NCBI RefSeq assembly: GCF_003122085.1
Contig: NZ_QEXV01000003.1
Span: 1 to 64,000 of the forward strand
DNA: 64,000 bases
Origin: Marinicauda salina
GTDB taxonomy: Bacteria; Pseudomonadota; Alphaproteobacteria; Caulobacterales; Maricaulaceae
Direction: 5' to 3'
Of this stretch, positions 51,618-58,760 are shown one piece after another. Both the position numbers and the translations under genes were made by a program. How positions within the stretch are numbered: the stretch's first letter is position 1; each line of letters opens with the position of its first letter. Under the pieces are notes generated by a model, which was not told where the DNA came from, did not search any database, and saw only the letters and a list, made by a program, of their open reading frames with translations.

Positions 51618-52586
51618 CTAGACCCGCCGGCCCGCCTTGAGCGCCGCCTCGCGCGCCTCGCGCAGGCGGACGAAATCGTCGCCGGCGTGATAGCTCGAGC
51701 GCGTCAGCGGAGTCGCCGAGACCATCAGGAAGCCCTTGGCGCGCGCGATCGTCTCGTAACCCTTGAACTCTTCGGGCGTGACGTAGCGATCGATGGCGGC
51801 GTGCTTGCGCGTCGGCTGCAGGTACTGGCCGATTGTGAGGAAGTCGACGCCGGCCGAACGCATGTCGTCCATGACCTGCATCACCTCCTCCTTGGTCTCG
51901 CCGAGCCCGACCATGATGCCGGACTTGGTGAACTGGGAGGGGGCGCGCTCCTTCACGCGCTCCAGCAGACGCAGCGAGTGGTAATAGCGCGCGCCGGGCC
52001 GGATCGAGAGATAGAGCCGCGGCACCGTCTCGAGATTGTGGTTGAAGACGTCGGCCTTGGCGTCGATGACGATCTCGGCCGCGCCCGGCTTCCTGAGGAA
52101 GTCCGGGGTCAGGATCTCGATCGTCGTGCCCGGCGCGTGCTCGCGAATGGCGCGGATCGTCTCGGCGAAGTGCTCGCCCCCGCCGTCGGAGAGGTCGTCG
52201 CGATCGACCGAGGTGATGACGACGTGCTTGAGCTCCATCGCCGCGGTCGCCTCGGCGACCCGGCGCGGCTCGTCGTGGTCGAGCGCGTTGGGCAGGCCGG
52301 TCTTGACGTTGCAGAAGCTGCACGCCCGGGTGCAGGTGTCGCCCAGGATCATGAAGGTCGCGTGCTTCTGCGACCAGCACTCGCCGATATTCGGGCAGCC
52401 CGCCTCCTCGCAGACGGTGACGAGATTGTTCTCCTTCACCACCTTGCGCGTCTCGGCGAAGGTCCCGCCCGCGGGCGCCTTCACCCGGATCCAGTCCGGC
52501 TTGCGGAGCACCGGGGAGTCGGGGCGCTTCTGCTTCTCGGGATGGCGCGCCGCGCGCGCCGCGTTGGCGTCTATCAGGGTCGTCAT
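51618..52586 (-). CDS. lipA: Lipoyl synthase
   Basis: LipA inserts two sulfurs into octanoyl chains on lipoate-dependent enzymes such as the PdhC encoded nearby. Both [4Fe-4S] motifs are present: [12 protein letters not shown] (auxiliary cluster) and [13 protein letters not shown] (CxxxCxxC, radical SAM), plus the C-terminal [10 protein letters not shown] motif. It has 322 residues from ATG 52586; ATG 52598 and a further upstream ATG are possible. It precedes the COQ10-like gene by 6 bp. Confidence 0.97.
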
Positions 52587-52747: not shown

Positions 52748-54004
52748 TCAGGCGGCGGGTTCGGAGGCCGCCTCCTCGGGCAGCTGCCGGGAGAAAATGG
52801 CCATCGACCAGGCGCCGAACCCGATGCACAGGACGACCAGGCTCACGATCCAGCCGAGCACGGGCACGGCGCCCAGAGCGGCCAGCGCGAGCAGGACCAG
52901 CGCGAGTGACCCGGTCCGAAGACCCAGCCCGGCGCGTTCGCCCGAACGGTTGAAGATCATGTCGCCGATGGCGACCCCGCCGAAAGCGAACGCCAGGAAC
53001 AGGATCACCGGGAAGGCGAACAGCACCACGAGCGCCAGCGGTATGCCGATCACCGTGGCGAGCAGCAGCACGGCGAGCGTCAGCACCAGAACCGGCGACA
53101 CCGCGAACACCACCAGGCCGAGCAGTCCCGAAATCCACGGCCGCTTGCGGAACGCCATGGCGACCGCGGCGACCGATTTCGGCGCCATGAGCGAGGCCAG
53201 CAGCCCCAGCACGAAGGCGCTGGCGGCGAAGGCGCCCCCGAACGCCCAGCTCGGCGGACCGAAGTCGAGATCGAAATTGACGCCCTCGAACTCGCCGATC
53301 TGGTGCTCGTCCCATTCGGCGAACTCGTAGGTGACCTCGCCGGCGATCTCCGCGCCCTCGGCGATTTCGGGCTCGTTCGGACCGCGCACCTCGATCGGGC
53401 CGCTGATCCGCGCGCCGTCCTCGAAGGTGACGTTGCGGGCGCGGATCTCGAGCGGGCCGTCAATCTCGCCGTGAATGCGAAGATCGCGCGCGCGCGCCTC
53501 GAGCGAGCCGCCGATGCGACCGAGAAGCTGGACTTCGCGGGCGGCGAACTCGGCGTCGCCGGCGATCTCCGCGCCCTCCTCGAGCGTGATGAGCGCGCCG
53601 GCGGCTTCGACGCTCCCGCCGATCCGGCCGGTGAAGGTCACGTTCGCGCCGGCTGCGTCGACATCGCCGTCGACGTCGGATCCGATCAGCAGGTCCGCGC
53701 CGGCGAGATCCACATCGCCGCCGACGAGACCGTTGAGCGTCACGTCGGCGCCCACGATCGAAACGTCGCCGCCGATATCGGCGTCGATCGAGACGTCGCC
53801 CGCGATGCCGCGGACGTCGCCGCCGACGCGGCCGTCGAGCGTGACGTCGCCGGCGAGGAAGCGGATATCGTCATCCTCGTCGAGGCTGAGATTGAGATCC
53901 CCGCCCAGATACTGGGCCTGGGCTCCGGCGCCCGCCGCCAGCGCAAGCAGCGCGCCGAAGAGGAGTGACTTGAGATTATTCATGGGCCTGACCGTCCTGT
54001 TCAT
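52748..54004 (-). CDS. Exported bactofilin-like beta-solenoid with C-terminal membrane domain
   Basis: This 418-residue protein starts with a signal sequence (LLFGALLALAAGAGAQA). About 200 residues follow in a regular repeat of GGDV / GADV / VGG units spaced 8-12 residues, the pattern of a right-handed beta-solenoid like bactofilins. The C-terminal third has about four to five membrane helices. A solenoid that is exported and then anchored by helices differs from classical cytoplasmic bactofilins. ATG 54004 has GGGAG upstream, overlapping the end of the previous gene; ATG 53983 is an alternative. It lies 6 bp after the lipoprotein gene, with a terminator downstream. Confidence 0.88.
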   Translation of the reverse strand: MNRTVRPMNNLKSLLFGALLALAAGAGAQAQYLGGDLNLSLDEDDDIRFLAGDVTLDGRVGGDVRGIAGDVSIDADIGGDVSIVGADVTLNGLVGGDVDLAGADLLIGSDVDGDVDAAGANVTFTGRIGGSVEAAGALITLEEGAEIAGDAEFAAREVQLLGRIGGSLEARARDLRIHGEIDGPLEIRARNVTFEDGARISGPIEVRGPNEPEIAEGAEIAGEVTYEFAEWDEHQIGEFEGVNFDLDFGPPSWAFGGAFAASAFVLGLLASLMAPKSVAAVAMAFRKRPWISGLLGLVVFAVSPVLVLTLAVLLLATVIGIPLALVVLFAFPVILFLAFAFGGVAIGDMIFNRSGERAGLGLRTGSLALVLLALAALGAVPVLGWIVSLVVLCIGFGAWSMAIFSRQLPEEAASEPAA

Positions 54005-54010
54005 CTCGCT

Positions 54011-54865
54011 CTACTCCCGCTCGCATTCGCGGCCCTCGCGGGCCGTGAAGCTCACCTCGGGCGCGTCGGCGCCGGCTTCGATCGTCGCCGGTTCGTCGGC
54101 CGTCACGGCGAGCGCGCCGGTCACCGTCCCCGAGATCACGACCCGACGGGCGCAGATTTCGCCGCCGGCCGTGCGCCCGGAGATGACGACCAGGCCGTCC
54201 TCGCGGTCATGGGGGCGCCGGCCCGGATCGGCGTAGATCTCGAGCGGCCCCTCGACGATGCCGGCGATGCGCGCCGTGCGCGCCGCGGCGTCGAGCCGGC
54301 CGCTGATCAGCCCGTCGACGTCAAGCTCGGCGGCGTTGACGCGCACGTCGCCGCTGGCCTGGAAGCCGTCTTCGAGAACGAGGTCGGCGGCGTTGACGCG
54401 CACATCGGAGAACACGCCCGACAGGCGCGCATCAGCCACGTTGGCGCGGAAGCCCCCGCCGACCGATCCATCGAAGCGCAGATCGGCGGCGTTGACCTCG
54501 AAGGCGCCGCCGACCGGCCCGCTCCAGCGCATGTCGGCGACGTTCATGTCGACGTCTTCGGCGACCTCGCCGTCGAACACGACGTCGGCGGCGGCGCCCT
54601 CGAGCGAACCGAGGCTGAGATCCTCGCCGCGGAAGTCCGCGCCGGCGACGCTCAGCCGCCCGCCGACACGGCCCGACAGGCTGACATCGGCGCCGGCGAC
54701 TCGAAAGTCGCCGTCCTCGTCGAGCGTCGCGCTGACATCGCCGCCGATCAGGTTCTGCTTGCCCTTGGAGGCGTAGGCCGCCCCGCTCGTATCGACATAG
54801 ATGCATCCGCCGAGCGCCAGCGCCATCGCGCCGGCCGCCGCCGTGGTGAGAAGGAGTCGCGTCAT
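54011..54865 (-). CDS. Beta-solenoid lipoprotein
   Basis: This 284-residue protein has a lipoprotein signal ending LGGC and a repeated mature domain with units such as VAGADVSLSGRVGG, VNAADLRFDGSVGG and VNAAELDVDGLISG, spaced about 20 residues. That pattern predicts a beta-solenoid. A C-terminal domain with two conserved Cys (GGEICARR and the terminal REGRECE) resembles that of the 55056 gene, which also ends in Cys-containing tails. ATG 54865 follows GGGAG at seven bases. Three operator-like dyads lie 33 bp upstream. It is the first gene of an operon with the next beta-solenoid gene. Confidence 0.87.
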   Translation of the reverse strand: MTRLLLTTAAAGAMALALGGCIYVDTSGAAYASKGKQNLIGGDVSATLDEDGDFRVAGADVSLSGRVGGRLSVAGADFRGEDLSLGSLEGAAADVVFDGEVAEDVDMNVADMRWSGPVGGAFEVNAADLRFDGSVGGGFRANVADARLSGVFSDVRVNAADLVLEDGFQASGDVRVNAAELDVDGLISGRLDAAARTARIAGIVEGPLEIYADPGRRPHDREDGLVVISGRTAGGEICARRVVISGTVTGALAVTADEPATIEAGADAPEVSFTAREGRECERE

Positions 54866-54897
54866 CGAGCCGCTCCCGTATTGTTTTCGACCAACCA

Positions 54898-54956
54898 TAT
54901 CGAAACTCGATAACATATCGAAACTCGATAACAAAGGTTTTTTTCGAAAAACGATA
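54898..54956. promoter_or_regulatory. Three operator-like dyads upstream of the beta-solenoid operon
   Basis: TATCGAAACTCGATA occurs twice in tandem (54898-54912 and 54916-54930) inside an exact 18-bp direct repeat. A third, imperfect copy, TTTCGAAAAACGATA, is at 54942-54956. Each is a TATCGA / TCGATA dyad with a three-base centre. The block is AT-rich in a very GC-rich genome and 33 bp from the start codon, suggesting a dimeric repressor or activator site. Confidence 0.65.
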
Positions 54957-54997
54957 AATTTCTGCAGATGGGGGCCGGGATGGCGGGTCCCGAATGA

Positions 54998-55029
54998 CGA
55001 GAGGCGGCCCCGCCGGGGACCGCCTCTCG
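54998..55029. terminator. Strong hairpin downstream of the first beta-solenoid gene
   Basis: CGAGAGGCGG and CCGCCTCTCG pair, with a further CCCC/GGGG inner stem. It lies 26 bp past the stop of the 55056 gene. No T-tract follows on either strand, so termination is only likely. Confidence 0.45.
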
Positions 55030-55055
55030 CCTAAGGAATTCGAGGGTCGGGCCGT

Positions 55056-55712
55056 CTAGCAGCGCTCGTCCTCGCGCGGTTCGTAGCGCACGCCCTCCAG
55101 CGTCTCGCCGTCGACGAACTCGGGCGGCGAATCGGCGATGACGAGCAGCTCGCCGCCGACCGACGCGCCCCAGCCGAACTCGACCTCGTGGGCGCAGATC
55201 CGCCCGCCCTGTTCGAGCGGGCCGGACACCTCGACGCGCGAGCGGTCGCCGCGGCGGAACAGCCCGCCCCGGCCCTCGCCGCGGATTTCGACGGGCGCGG
55301 CGAACCGGCCTTCGAGCCGGACCGATCCCATGTTGATCTCGACCGGCCCCTCATAGACGCCGCGCAGCGTGGCGCGCCCGGCATTGACCTCGACCGGCCC
55401 GGAGAACGTTCCGTCCAGCGTCGTCCCGCCGGCGTTGACCTCGGTGCGGCCGCCCGCCGAGCCGGTGAATTCGACGCTGGCGCCGTTGAGATCGACGTCG
55501 CCGCCGACATCGGCCTCGACGTCCACGCTGGCGCCGTTGAGATCGACCCAGCCGCCGACGCGGCCGCGCACCGTCACCGATACGCCGTTCATCTCGACAT
55601 TGCCGTCGGTGTCGGTGTCGATCACGCCGGCGATGCCGTCGAAGGACTGGTTGCGCGCGTGCGCGGTCCCGAACGAGGCGGCGAGCGCCGCGGCGAGCAG
55701 AACTGTCTTCAT
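55056..55712 (-). CDS. Exported soluble beta-solenoid protein
   Basis: This 218-residue protein has a signal peptide (MKTVLLAAALAASFGTAHA) without a lipobox. The mature part is a series of short strands such as MNGVSVTVRGRVGG, LNGASVDVEADVGG and LNGASVEFTGSAGG, then EVNAGGTTLDGTFSGP, spaced about 20 residues: a predicted beta-solenoid. The C-terminal region has GGRICAHEVEFGWG and ends DERC, matching the Cys pattern of the 54011 gene. ATG 55712 is the third of three adjacent ATGs; GGGAG six bases upstream favours it. It is upstream of, and probably related to, the two other solenoid genes. Confidence 0.87.
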   Translation of the reverse strand: MKTVLLAAALAASFGTAHARNQSFDGIAGVIDTDTDGNVEMNGVSVTVRGRVGGWVDLNGASVDVEADVGGDVDLNGASVEFTGSAGGRTEVNAGGTTLDGTFSGPVEVNAGRATLRGVYEGPVEINMGSVRLEGRFAAPVEIRGEGRGGLFRRGDRSRVEVSGPLEQGGRICAHEVEFGWGASVGGELLVIADSPPEFVDGETLEGVRYEPREDERC

Positions 55713-55785: not shown

Positions 55786-57204
55786 TCAGTAGTGGAGCGC
55801 GCGGTCGTACGCGTCGAGCACGCTCTCGTGCATCATCTCCGACAGCGTCGGGTGCGGGAAGATCGCGTGCATGAGCTCGGCCTCGGTCGTCTCGAGCGTC
55901 TTGCCGACGGCGTAGCCCTGGATGAGTTCGGTGACTTCGGCGCCGATCATGTGGGCGCCCAGAAGCTCGCCGGTCTTCTTGTCGAAGATCGTCTTGATCA
56001 GCCCCTGGTCCTCGCCGAGCGCGATCGCCTTGCCATTGCCCACGAAGGGGAAGCGGCCGACGCGGATGTCGTGGCCGGCGTCCTTCGCCCCCTGCTCGCT
56101 GAGGCCCACCGAGGCGATCTGGGGATGGCAGTAGGTGCAGGCGGGAATGTTCGACTTGTCGATGGGATGGACGTCCTCGCCGGCGATCTTTTCCACGCAG
56201 ATCACGCCTTCGTGGCTCGCCTTGTGGGCCAGCCAGGGCGCGCCCACGACGTCGCCGATGGCGTACAGCCCCTTCACCCCGGTGCGCCCGAAGCCGTCGG
56301 CGACGACATGGCCCTTGTCGATCTCGACGCCGAGCTCCTCGAGGCCGAGATTCTCGACATTGCCGGTGATGCCGATGGCGAGCACGACGCGGTCGACCTC
56401 GATCGTCTCGGTCTTCCCGTCCTTCTTCTTCACCGTCGCCTTCACGGTCTTCGAGCCCTTGTCGAGCTTCTCGACCTGGGCCTCGGTGAGGATGTTGAGG
56501 CCCTGCTTCCTGAACTGCTTTTCGGCCATCGCCGAGATCTCTTCGTCCTCGGCGGGCACGATACGGTCGACCATCTCCACGACCGTCACGTCGGCGCCCA
56601 TCGTGTGATAGAAGCTCGCGAACTCGATGCCGATCGCCCCCGAACCGATGACCAGCATCGATTTCGGCATCGCCTCGGGAACCATCGCCTCCTTGTAGGT
56701 CCAGATGAATTTGCCGTCGGGCTCGAGCCCGGCCTTGGGGATCGTGCGCGCCCGCGCCCCGGTGGCGAGGATGACGTGCCTGGCCTTGTAGCCCGTCTCC
56801 TTGTCCTCCTTGCCCTTCACCAGGACCTTCGGCGCGTCGCCGCCCTTCTCGAGGCGCGCCTCGCCCTCGATCACCGTGACCTTGTTCTTCTTCATGAGAT
56901 GACCGACGCCCGAGGACAGCCGCCCGGCGACTTTCCGCGAGCGCTTGACCACGGCCTCGATGTCGAACCCGACATTGTCGGCCTTCAGCCCGAATTCCTC
57001 GGCGCGCTGGAACAGGTGATAGATGTCCGAGGTGCGCAGGAGCGCCTTGGTCGGGATGCAGCCCCAGTTCAGGCACACGCCGCCGAGCTTGTCGCGCTCG
57101 ACCACTGCGGTCTTGAATCCCAGCTGGGCGGCGCGGATGGCGGCGACATAGCCGCCCGGTCCGCCGCCGATGACGATCACGTCGAATTCGGTCTCGGCCA
57201 ACAC
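55786..57204 (-). CDS. lpdA: Dihydrolipoyl dehydrogenase (E3)
   Basis: This FAD enzyme reoxidises the lipoyl groups of 2-oxoacid dehydrogenase complexes. The 472-residue protein has the FAD motif VIGGGPGGYVAAI, redox disulfide Cys44/Cys49 (GVCLNWGCIPTK), the NAD motif VIGSGAIGIEFASF and the active-site His in the C-terminal HAIFPHPTLSE. The start is GTG 57204 with GGGAGATC upstream. pdhC lies about 3 kb upstream on the same strand; in many relatives the two are adjacent, so intervening genes have probably been inserted. Confidence 0.97.
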   Translation of the reverse strand: MLAETEFDVIVIGGGPGGYVAAIRAAQLGFKTAVVERDKLGGVCLNWGCIPTKALLRTSDIYHLFQRAEEFGLKADNVGFDIEAVVKRSRKVAGRLSSGVGHLMKKNKVTVIEGEARLEKGGDAPKVLVKGKEDKETGYKARHVILATGARARTIPKAGLEPDGKFIWTYKEAMVPEAMPKSMLVIGSGAIGIEFASFYHTMGADVTVVEMVDRIVPAEDEEISAMAEKQFRKQGLNILTEAQVEKLDKGSKTVKATVKKKDGKTETIEVDRVVLAIGITGNVENLGLEELGVEIDKGHVVADGFGRTGVKGLYAIGDVVGAPWLAHKASHEGVICVEKIAGEDVHPIDKSNIPACTYCHPQIASVGLSEQGAKDAGHDIRVGRFPFVGNGKAIALGEDQGLIKTIFDKKTGELLGAHMIGAEVTELIQGYAVGKTLETTEAELMHAIFPHPTLSEMMHESVLDAYDRALHY

Positions 57205-58259: not shown

Positions 58260-58760
58260 ACGATCAGTCTCGGTCAAAGCGTCTCTAAGGAATTGCTTTG
58301 CCGAGTATCGAATCTCGTTTGCTAAAATATCTGTCGTCGCATATTTCACAAGTGGTTGATCAACTAGATTACGCGAATGCTCTAGGCCATCAAAATTTGA
58401 TAACCAACGTTCACTTAATTTGTTATCGCGTACTTCTTTGATAGCAGAAACAATTGAAGCAAATTTGACCTCTGATTTATCTGCCAAAAGCAATTCAATT
58501 GTCTTATTAGGCTCTGACATATATGCAGCAAGCCAATAAACACTATCATCGATATAGTCTCCAGCATCCCTCTTCTGCAATTCATCGCCTCCATTTTCTT
58601 TACTTAACTCGTCAATAAGCTTAGCAGCAGCCATAGCGTGCAAATGAATGTATTTCCTCGCAATCAATCGCCTCGATATGAGAATACTCACTAGCAAAAA
58701 TAGTGCACAATATAAGAAGGCGGCAATTGACAATAAATCTATGACTTGAAGAGCGCTCAT
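58245..58760 (-). CDS. Hypothetical protein, one N-terminal helix plus helical cytoplasmic domain (AT-rich islet)
   Basis: This 171-residue protein has one N-terminal membrane helix (AAFLYCALFLLVSILI) followed by a Lys/Arg/Glu-rich helical domain. I recognise no family. Base composition is far more AT-rich than all neighbours, as in the gene upstream. ATG 58760 follows GGGAGCGGAGCA, and its first bases overlap the stop of the upstream gene (ATGA), so the two are translationally coupled. Together they form a foreign-looking two-gene unit. Confidence 0.72.
   Translation of the reverse strand: MSALQVIDLLSIAAFLYCALFLLVSILISRRLIARKYIHLHAMAAAKLIDELSKENGGDELQKRDAGDYIDDSVYWLAAYMSEPNKTIELLLADKSEVKFASIVSAIKEVRDNKLSERWLSNFDGLEHSRNLVDQPLVKYATTDILANEIRYSAKQFLRDALTETDRLRMS

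Follow-up and report, generated by a model that had tools for sequence, protein, structure and literature searches.

Bactofilins are known as cytoplasmic cytoskeletal proteins. Lia/Psp-type membrane-stress systems carry DUF4097/"toastrack" beta-repeat proteins and follow a logic similar to the one proposed here, with a membrane sensor, a small regulator and an exported beta-repeat effector. The subject of this work is a set of three consecutive genes in a 64,000-nucleotide (nt) stretch of Marinicauda salina (GCF_003122085.1, contig NZ_QEXV01000003.1, positions 1-64,000; hereafter the window), which encode the exported proteins here called P3, P2 and P1 (Table 1). The canonical bactofilins, represented by Caulobacter BacA (Protein Data Bank (PDB) entry 2n3d), a Thermus bactofilin (6rib) and the Pfam family Bactofilin (PF04519), resemble them in that half of the P1 solenoid superposes on their structures and the profiles of P1 and P2 match weakly. 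P1 to P3 differ from the canonical proteins in being longer, in having signal peptides and in being anchored by membrane helices or lipid rather than by an N-terminal amphipathic peptide, and P1 does not keep the Phe of the polymer interface. According to PMC12448750, this residue is F130 of BacA, at the C-terminal polymer interface, and a small subset of bactofilins is recognized as having membrane helices. Haloarchaeal halofilins, according to PMC12186497, are bactofilin homologues that come as a pair and act on cell shape; they are archaeal and are likened to P1-P3 by description only, as paired bactofilin homologues.

We propose that P1, P2 and P3 are extracytoplasmic, envelope-protecting proteins of bactofilin fold, and that P2 and P1 are switched through conserved operator boxes by an HTH_26 (helix-turn-helix, HTH) protein whose gene stands beside that of a DUF2975 membrane protein; we give this explanation as a whole roughly even chances of being correct. 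The literature searched, with most subscription papers outside it, contained no study of exported bactofilins accompanied by lipoprotein paralogues and none on the function of the exported, membrane-helix bactofilin branch to which P1 belongs and which, at E 1e-10, has members in 36 of the 289 alphaproteobacterial genomes searched, that of M. salina among them. DUF2975, searched as a whole word, brought up two papers, and neither uses the term in its title or abstract. Homology, predicted folds, export signals, charge topology, and the conservation and occurrence of the operator were computed as described below.

Sequence relationship and fold

Judged by their sequences, P1, P2 and P3 are related beyond chance and have a common origin, with profile comparisons (hhalign) giving E-values of 3.4e-43 for P2 against P3 and 4.8e-25 for P1 against P3. 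P1 passes the curated cutoff of the Pfam Bactofilin model (41.2 bits, cutoff 27.9), P2 stays under it (24.9 bits), and the window P3 has no Pfam match of its own; among aligned members, 15 of 18 P1, 11 of 13 P2 and 9 of 15 P3 sequences match the model at E 0.01. Against solved structures the profiles gave weak matches to 6ria (E 0.0033) and 2n3d (E 0.031) for P1 and to 6ria (E 0.0082) for P2, and no bactofilin was reached with the P3 profile. A match of the P2 profile to a phage tail fibre (E 9.6e-6) was taken as repeat resemblance. DUF4097 did not match any of the window proteins P1-P3 at E 1, and DUF2807 weakly matched 1 of 15 aligned P3 members (E 0.002). A six-frame scan of the genome with the Bactofilin model listed only a canonical-type gene, which is separate from the locus (94.4 bits; L233:1411-1995, C3:180422) and lies beside an open reading frame (ORF) that we take to be M23-peptidase-like.

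The preliminary description of this locus had presented the three proteins as exported, bactofilin-related beta-solenoids and had named structure prediction as a check. Modelled singly with AlphaFold2 (AF2), P1 and P2 are indeed predicted to be beta-solenoids, in agreement with the profiles and with the Pfam score of P1. The P2 model (predicted local distance difference test, pLDDT, 88.9; predicted template-modelling score, pTM, 0.82) consists of strands almost throughout, and the P1 model (pLDDT 84.5, pTM 0.58) of a solenoid and then six helices. P3 would be a beta-solenoid by its homology to P2 and P1. Residues 113-219 of P1 align by VIA-align on the Thermus bactofilin 6rib with a Z-score of 10.8, a root-mean-square deviation (rmsd) of 1.4 Å over 96 of 101 residues and 25% identity, and on BacA 2n3d with a Z-score of 9.1 and 2.3 Å over 99 residues. 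Foldseek against the PDB found no significant match for either model (best E 0.12 and 0.63), the P2 model reaching 6rib at E 5.5 with a template-modelling score (TMt) of 0.50; for P1 the structural argument is therefore that of the VIA-align superposition. Among the best 50 VIA-align matches of P2 there is no bactofilin; the best of low rmsd are EtpA (3.0 Å, 218 residues) and an antifreeze protein (3.2 Å, 229 residues), and many others have an rmsd near 10 Å. For P2, then, the model suggests a beta-helix, aligned at about 3 Å over more than 200 residues, and we claim no closer fold family.

Export signals and membrane topology

All three genes lie on the minus strand and encode short-repeat proteins with export signals, as the preliminary description had it. 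P1 has a signal peptide ending in AQA, with Q following, then the repeats and then hydrophobic helices; P2 has the lipobox LGGC; and the signal peptide of the window P3 ends in AHA and has no lipobox match. By simple sequence patterns rather than a trained predictor, the lipobox is matched by 36 of 38 P2 copies and by 31 of 42 P3 copies, the window P3 being among the other 11. A few of these assignments may be false, because 2 of 55 P1 match the pattern as well. By the same patterns a signal peptide or lipobox is found in P1-P3 of the window and in nearly all relatives, which does not fit cytoplasmic bactofilins. The soluble, lipid-anchored and membrane-embedded states earlier assigned to P3, P2 and P1 agree with their signals in the window, but solubility is not conserved among the P3 copies, since most of them match the lipobox pattern.

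For P1, the charges flanking the helices, taken as averages of 18 sequences, agree under the positive-inside rule with a solenoid outside the cytoplasm. Lys/Arg number 3.9 after the first helix versus 0.5 before it, and the second inner loop has 1.8; both outer loops, of only 3-4 residues, have none, and the C-terminal tail has 1.9 Lys/Arg but 2.5 Asp/Glu. The Cys-bearing C-terminal region said to be common to two of the proteins is that of P2 and P3: two Cys are present in the last 45% of the protein in all 38 P2 and all 42 P3 copies scored.

Distribution and gene sets

Homologues of P1 were found in 55 of the 137 genomes of the family to which M. salina belongs, and 51 of these have the module by the bit-score cut. 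G085 and G129 (115 and 111 bits) were inspected and left out of the module count, the loci gathered did not extend to the P1 of G020 and G055 (E 3.7e-4 and 7.1e-4), and G032 (104 bits), of another family, was not counted; the module is split over two contigs in G060 and G109, and P1 is cut by a contig end in G057. According to the titles of 18 loci, the module belongs mostly to Maricaulis, Oceanicaulis, Glycocaulis, Marinicauda and Hyphobacterium, and the identity of relatives to the window P1 is only about 34-55%.

P1 is the constant member. The set P3+P2+P1 is present in 27 of the 51 genomes and P2+P1 in 7, and P1 stands alone in 6 plus one split genome; the further sets are two P3+P2+P1 (4), P3+P1 (4), P3+short P2+P1 (1) and two P3+P1 (1). 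Full-length P2 is present in 38 and P3 in 37 genomes. In G105 and G113, both with P3+P1, the place of P2 after the operator is taken by short ORFs (57 and 83 residues) that resemble lipoproteins. The preliminary description had named conserved gene trios across Caulobacterales as a check; in this family 31 of 51 module genomes have all three at full length, but the trio is not obligate, P1 being found without P2 or P3 in 7. The novelty claimed for the layout also has to be narrowed. The membrane-anchored part is not unique here, because P1-type proteins with an identical solenoid-membrane domain layout occur in other alphaproteobacterial families; these differ in that none of the 24 loci inspected has a P2 or P3 partner in its 1.5-kb flanks. 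A signal-peptide-like start is present in 20 of the 24.

These occurrences bear on the idea of the preliminary description that the three proteins co-assemble, here taken as polymerisation of P1, P2 and P3 together, end to end, in a periplasmic filament joining the inner and outer membranes, a true extracytoplasmic cytoskeleton. The bactofilin fold of P1, the adjacency of three differently anchored paralogues and the retention of all three in 31 genomes would suit such a filament, which we nevertheless regard as improbable: P1 exists without P2 and P3 in 7 of 51 genomes and without such partners in the 24 loci inspected from other families, 17 of 18 P1 have Ile or Leu at the position of BacA F130, and the Cys-pair end region of P2 and P3 could cap the solenoid end. 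An obligate three-protein complex is disfavored because the gene sets vary.

A conserved operator and its candidate regulator

An operator of the form TATCG-N5-CGATA (the box) sits before P2, or before P1 in genomes that lack P2, and not before P3. Exact copies occur in 50 of the 51 module genomes, and in 23 they form pairs at an 18-bp step; G010, the remaining genome, has TATTG-N5-CGATA instead. Over 56 loci (775 kb), 72 of 73 exact copies are found upstream of the start of P2 or P1, at a distance of no more than 400 bp; the exception is in G058, whose P2 start is uncertain. In these loci, eight control patterns gave counts of 0 to 6 versus 73 for the operator. Allowing up to 3 mismatches gives 6 matches in the window versus 0.46 expected, 5 in the operator block (two copies on both strands) and one at 58306. 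The 24 loci inspected from other families gave one exact match, located inside the P1 gene itself. In many loci of the Maricaulis/Hyphobacterium type (e.g. L089, L042), a stem-loop-like element, CGCTGGGGAGCG, follows the operator in the P2-P1 leader.

The preliminary description had taken an operator block and a terminator as signs of one regulated unit of three genes. The operator is extremely conserved and a terminator-like hairpin is present, but P3 is outside: the dedicated unit is P2-P1, because the operator stands before these two only and a strong hairpin separates P3 from it. A generic three-gene scaffold operon was rejected because the operator unit does not include P3 and because genomes differ in their gene sets. 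The same position of P3 favors a reading of P1, P2 and P3 as independent envelope factors (e.g. lipid- or glycan-binding beta-solenoids) that make no contact and are clustered only by duplication, as do the varying presence of partners and the better match of P2 with P3 than of P3 with P1. The order operator-P2-P1 is, on the other hand, preserved across genera, and in the stretches examined P3, where found, is in the same cluster except in G060, with its two contigs. We consider independence possible, though unlikely.

The M. salina genome has four exact copies of the box, two of them at P2-P1. The third precedes genes for a small single-helix peptide, a DUF2975 protein (45.6 bits, cutoff 27) and an HTH_26 protein (79.3 bits, cutoff 22), divergent from an rdgB-like gene, and the fourth stands directly before a gene for a small membrane protein of the superinfection-immunity-like family Imm_superinfect (70.2 bits; L172:2329-2526, own genome C2). 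HTH_26 and DUF2975 genes are side by side in the loci inspected, often preceded by a peptide of about 50 amino acids (aa) with a single helix, and divergent from the rdgB-like gene in 11 of 12 loci. Among the module genomes examined, 20 of 22 have an exact box before the DUF2975-HTH_26 operon; G014 has one mismatch, and in G105 none was found with the pattern used for 8 further genomes, which needs A or T at the center and which a G/C-centered site would escape. The total joins at least 12 of a first 14 module genomes, in which the sites of G118, G017 and G011 were covered in part, with G010 and with 7 of the 8 further genomes. The Imm-like gene has a box in at least 10 of 14 module genomes, its identity resting on Pfam for one protein (that of L172) and on the sequence, judged by eye, for the other nine. 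Two further observations concern the box. In the Oceanicaulis-type genomes of L158 and L161 it also precedes a second gene for a single-helix peptide of about 50 aa. A one-mismatch copy lies upstream of an efflux outer-membrane lipoprotein gene, presumably NodT-like (L011, own genome C1:952918); this site was examined in the own genome alone and left out of the regulon.

Related boxes are also found at divergent DUF2975 loci in genomes without the module, where 5 of 12 have one within one mismatch versus 0.12 expected from mononucleotide shuffling; no match was found in 14,166 bases further on. The 12 loci are from 15 DUF2975 regions, with G014 and G010 counted as module genomes and G016 dropped because its upstream part is missing, and their ORF starts are first-start guesses. 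On the simplest reading of these sequences, the box would be ancestral to the DUF2975-HTH operon and P2-P1 would have joined later. The DUF2975-HTH_26 loci are probably an autoregulated membrane regulon, and the co-occurrence of the box at P2-P1 and before the DUF2975-HTH_26 operon, including the divergent loci, makes the HTH_26 protein the likely regulator that binds the box at P2-P1. Alternatively, the operator may be bound by an unrelated regulator encoded elsewhere, with the DUF2975-HTH genes merely another target. As this alternative would have it, P2-P1 has no visible regulator gene beside it in the window, yet related boxes are present at the promoter of the HTH gene itself even in divergent genomes without the module, and small HTH proteins usually autoregulate. 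We hold an unrelated regulator to be rather unlikely.

Features of the locus

The coordinates of the genes and signals are collected in Table 1. The P1 start is likely at 53980 rather than 54004. The names of the flanking genes, lpdA and lipA, are those that we take to be right from their families; homologues of both are present in 25 of 51 loci, the lipA counts being bounded by the length of the fetched stretches. The hairpin after P1 is absent from a consensus terminator scan, which gave 2 matches elsewhere in the region (1.5 expected). In the two loci tested for it (L043:7658-9421 and L045:7839-9491), a gene on the opposite strand between P3 and the operator encodes an AMP-binding enzyme, which resembles the C-terminal half of acyl-ACP--phospholipid O-acyltransferase below the model cutoff.

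Table 1. Features of the P3-P2-P1 locus (window positions) and of the candidate regulator operon
Feature	Position	Strand	Description
P1	52748..53980	-	Sec-type signal peptide, predicted bactofilin-fold beta-solenoid (residues 24-220), C-terminal helical membrane domain
P1 membrane domain	52790..53251	-	Residues 244-397; six helices in the model, five interpreted as membrane-crossing
P2	54011..54865	-	Lipoprotein, lipobox Cys21, predicted beta-solenoid, C-terminal Cys pair C238/C281
P3	55056..55712	-	Exported P2 paralogue, Sec-type signal peptide, C-terminal Cys pair C173/C218
Operator copy nearer P2	54898..54912	-	TATCGAGTTTCGATA, exact, 15 bp
Second operator copy	54916..54930	-	TATCGAGTTTCGATA, exact, 15 bp, 18 bp from the first
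Operator-like third copy	54942..54956	-	TATCGTTTTTCGAAA, one mismatch, 26 bp from the second
Intrinsic-terminator-like hairpin and T run after P1	52663..52701	-	Folding energy (dG) -34.7 for 61-nt stretch, z -2.73
Strong hairpin without T run, between P3 and operator	54996..55031	-	dG -40.9 for 66-nt stretch, z -4.00
lpdA-like gene (presumably dihydrolipoamide dehydrogenase)	55786..57204	-	Upstream neighbor; same-strand homologue within 7 kb in 48/51 P1 loci
lipA-like gene (presumably lipoyl synthase)	51618..52586	-	Downstream neighbor; same-strand homologue within 7 kb, inside the fetched stretch, in 27/51 P1 loci
DUF2975 and HTH_26 genes	L173:1413-2221 (own genome C1)		

Proposed role in the envelope

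In the explanation that we propose, P1 would be anchored in the inner membrane and its solenoid would project into the periplasm, while P2 (usually) and P3 (in most relatives) would be lipid-anchored, probably at the outer membrane. DUF2975 would report the state of the inner membrane, and the HTH protein would then release or activate the promoters. The probable targets of the HTH_26 protein, with DUF2975 as its membrane partner, are its own operon, P2-P1 and the Imm-like gene, so that the superinfection-immunity-like small membrane protein would be a member of the same regulon. P1 and P2 would be produced on demand from the membrane and would serve as periplasmic braces, tethered to membranes, in protection of the envelope.

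Several observations weigh against this explanation. Beta-helices other than bactofilins cover more of P1 and score higher (EtpA, 8vbb, Z-score 19.0, 2.2 Å over 201 residues), and because these longer helices score higher, the fold alone cannot single out bactofilins. The position in P1 equivalent to the polymer-interface F130 of BacA, as placed by a low-scoring HMMER alignment, is Ile in 14, Leu in 3 and Phe in 1 of 18 sequences. Full-length P2 is missing from 13 of the 51 module genomes. When one mismatch is allowed, the operator count of 115 is less clear of the control patterns (5 to 76), and the position of the operator relative to promoter elements, judged by eye, differs between genera, so that repression is not argued from these elements. 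Finally, in 7 of the 12 divergent DUF2975 loci no box was found even with one mismatch allowed, and DUF2975 is present in 126 of 137 genomes of the family, mostly without the module, so the DUF2975-HTH regulator has other work as well.

A bolder picture, which we think quite improbable, is that of a periplasmic bactofilin-fold scaffold tying the inner membrane (P1) to the outer (P2 and P3) and deployed when required by DUF2975-HTH as a switch for membrane state, an extracytoplasmic, stress-inducible cytoskeleton of Maricaulis-type bacteria. Envelope homeostasis is the likely role of the system, and the conserved motif shared by P2-P1 and the regulator operon points to an uncharacterised envelope-maintenance system. 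In summary, the putative regulon of operator, DUF2975-HTH pair, exported solenoids and superinfection-immunity-like protein offers a concrete experimental handle and suggests a function for the DUF2975/HTH_26 pair.

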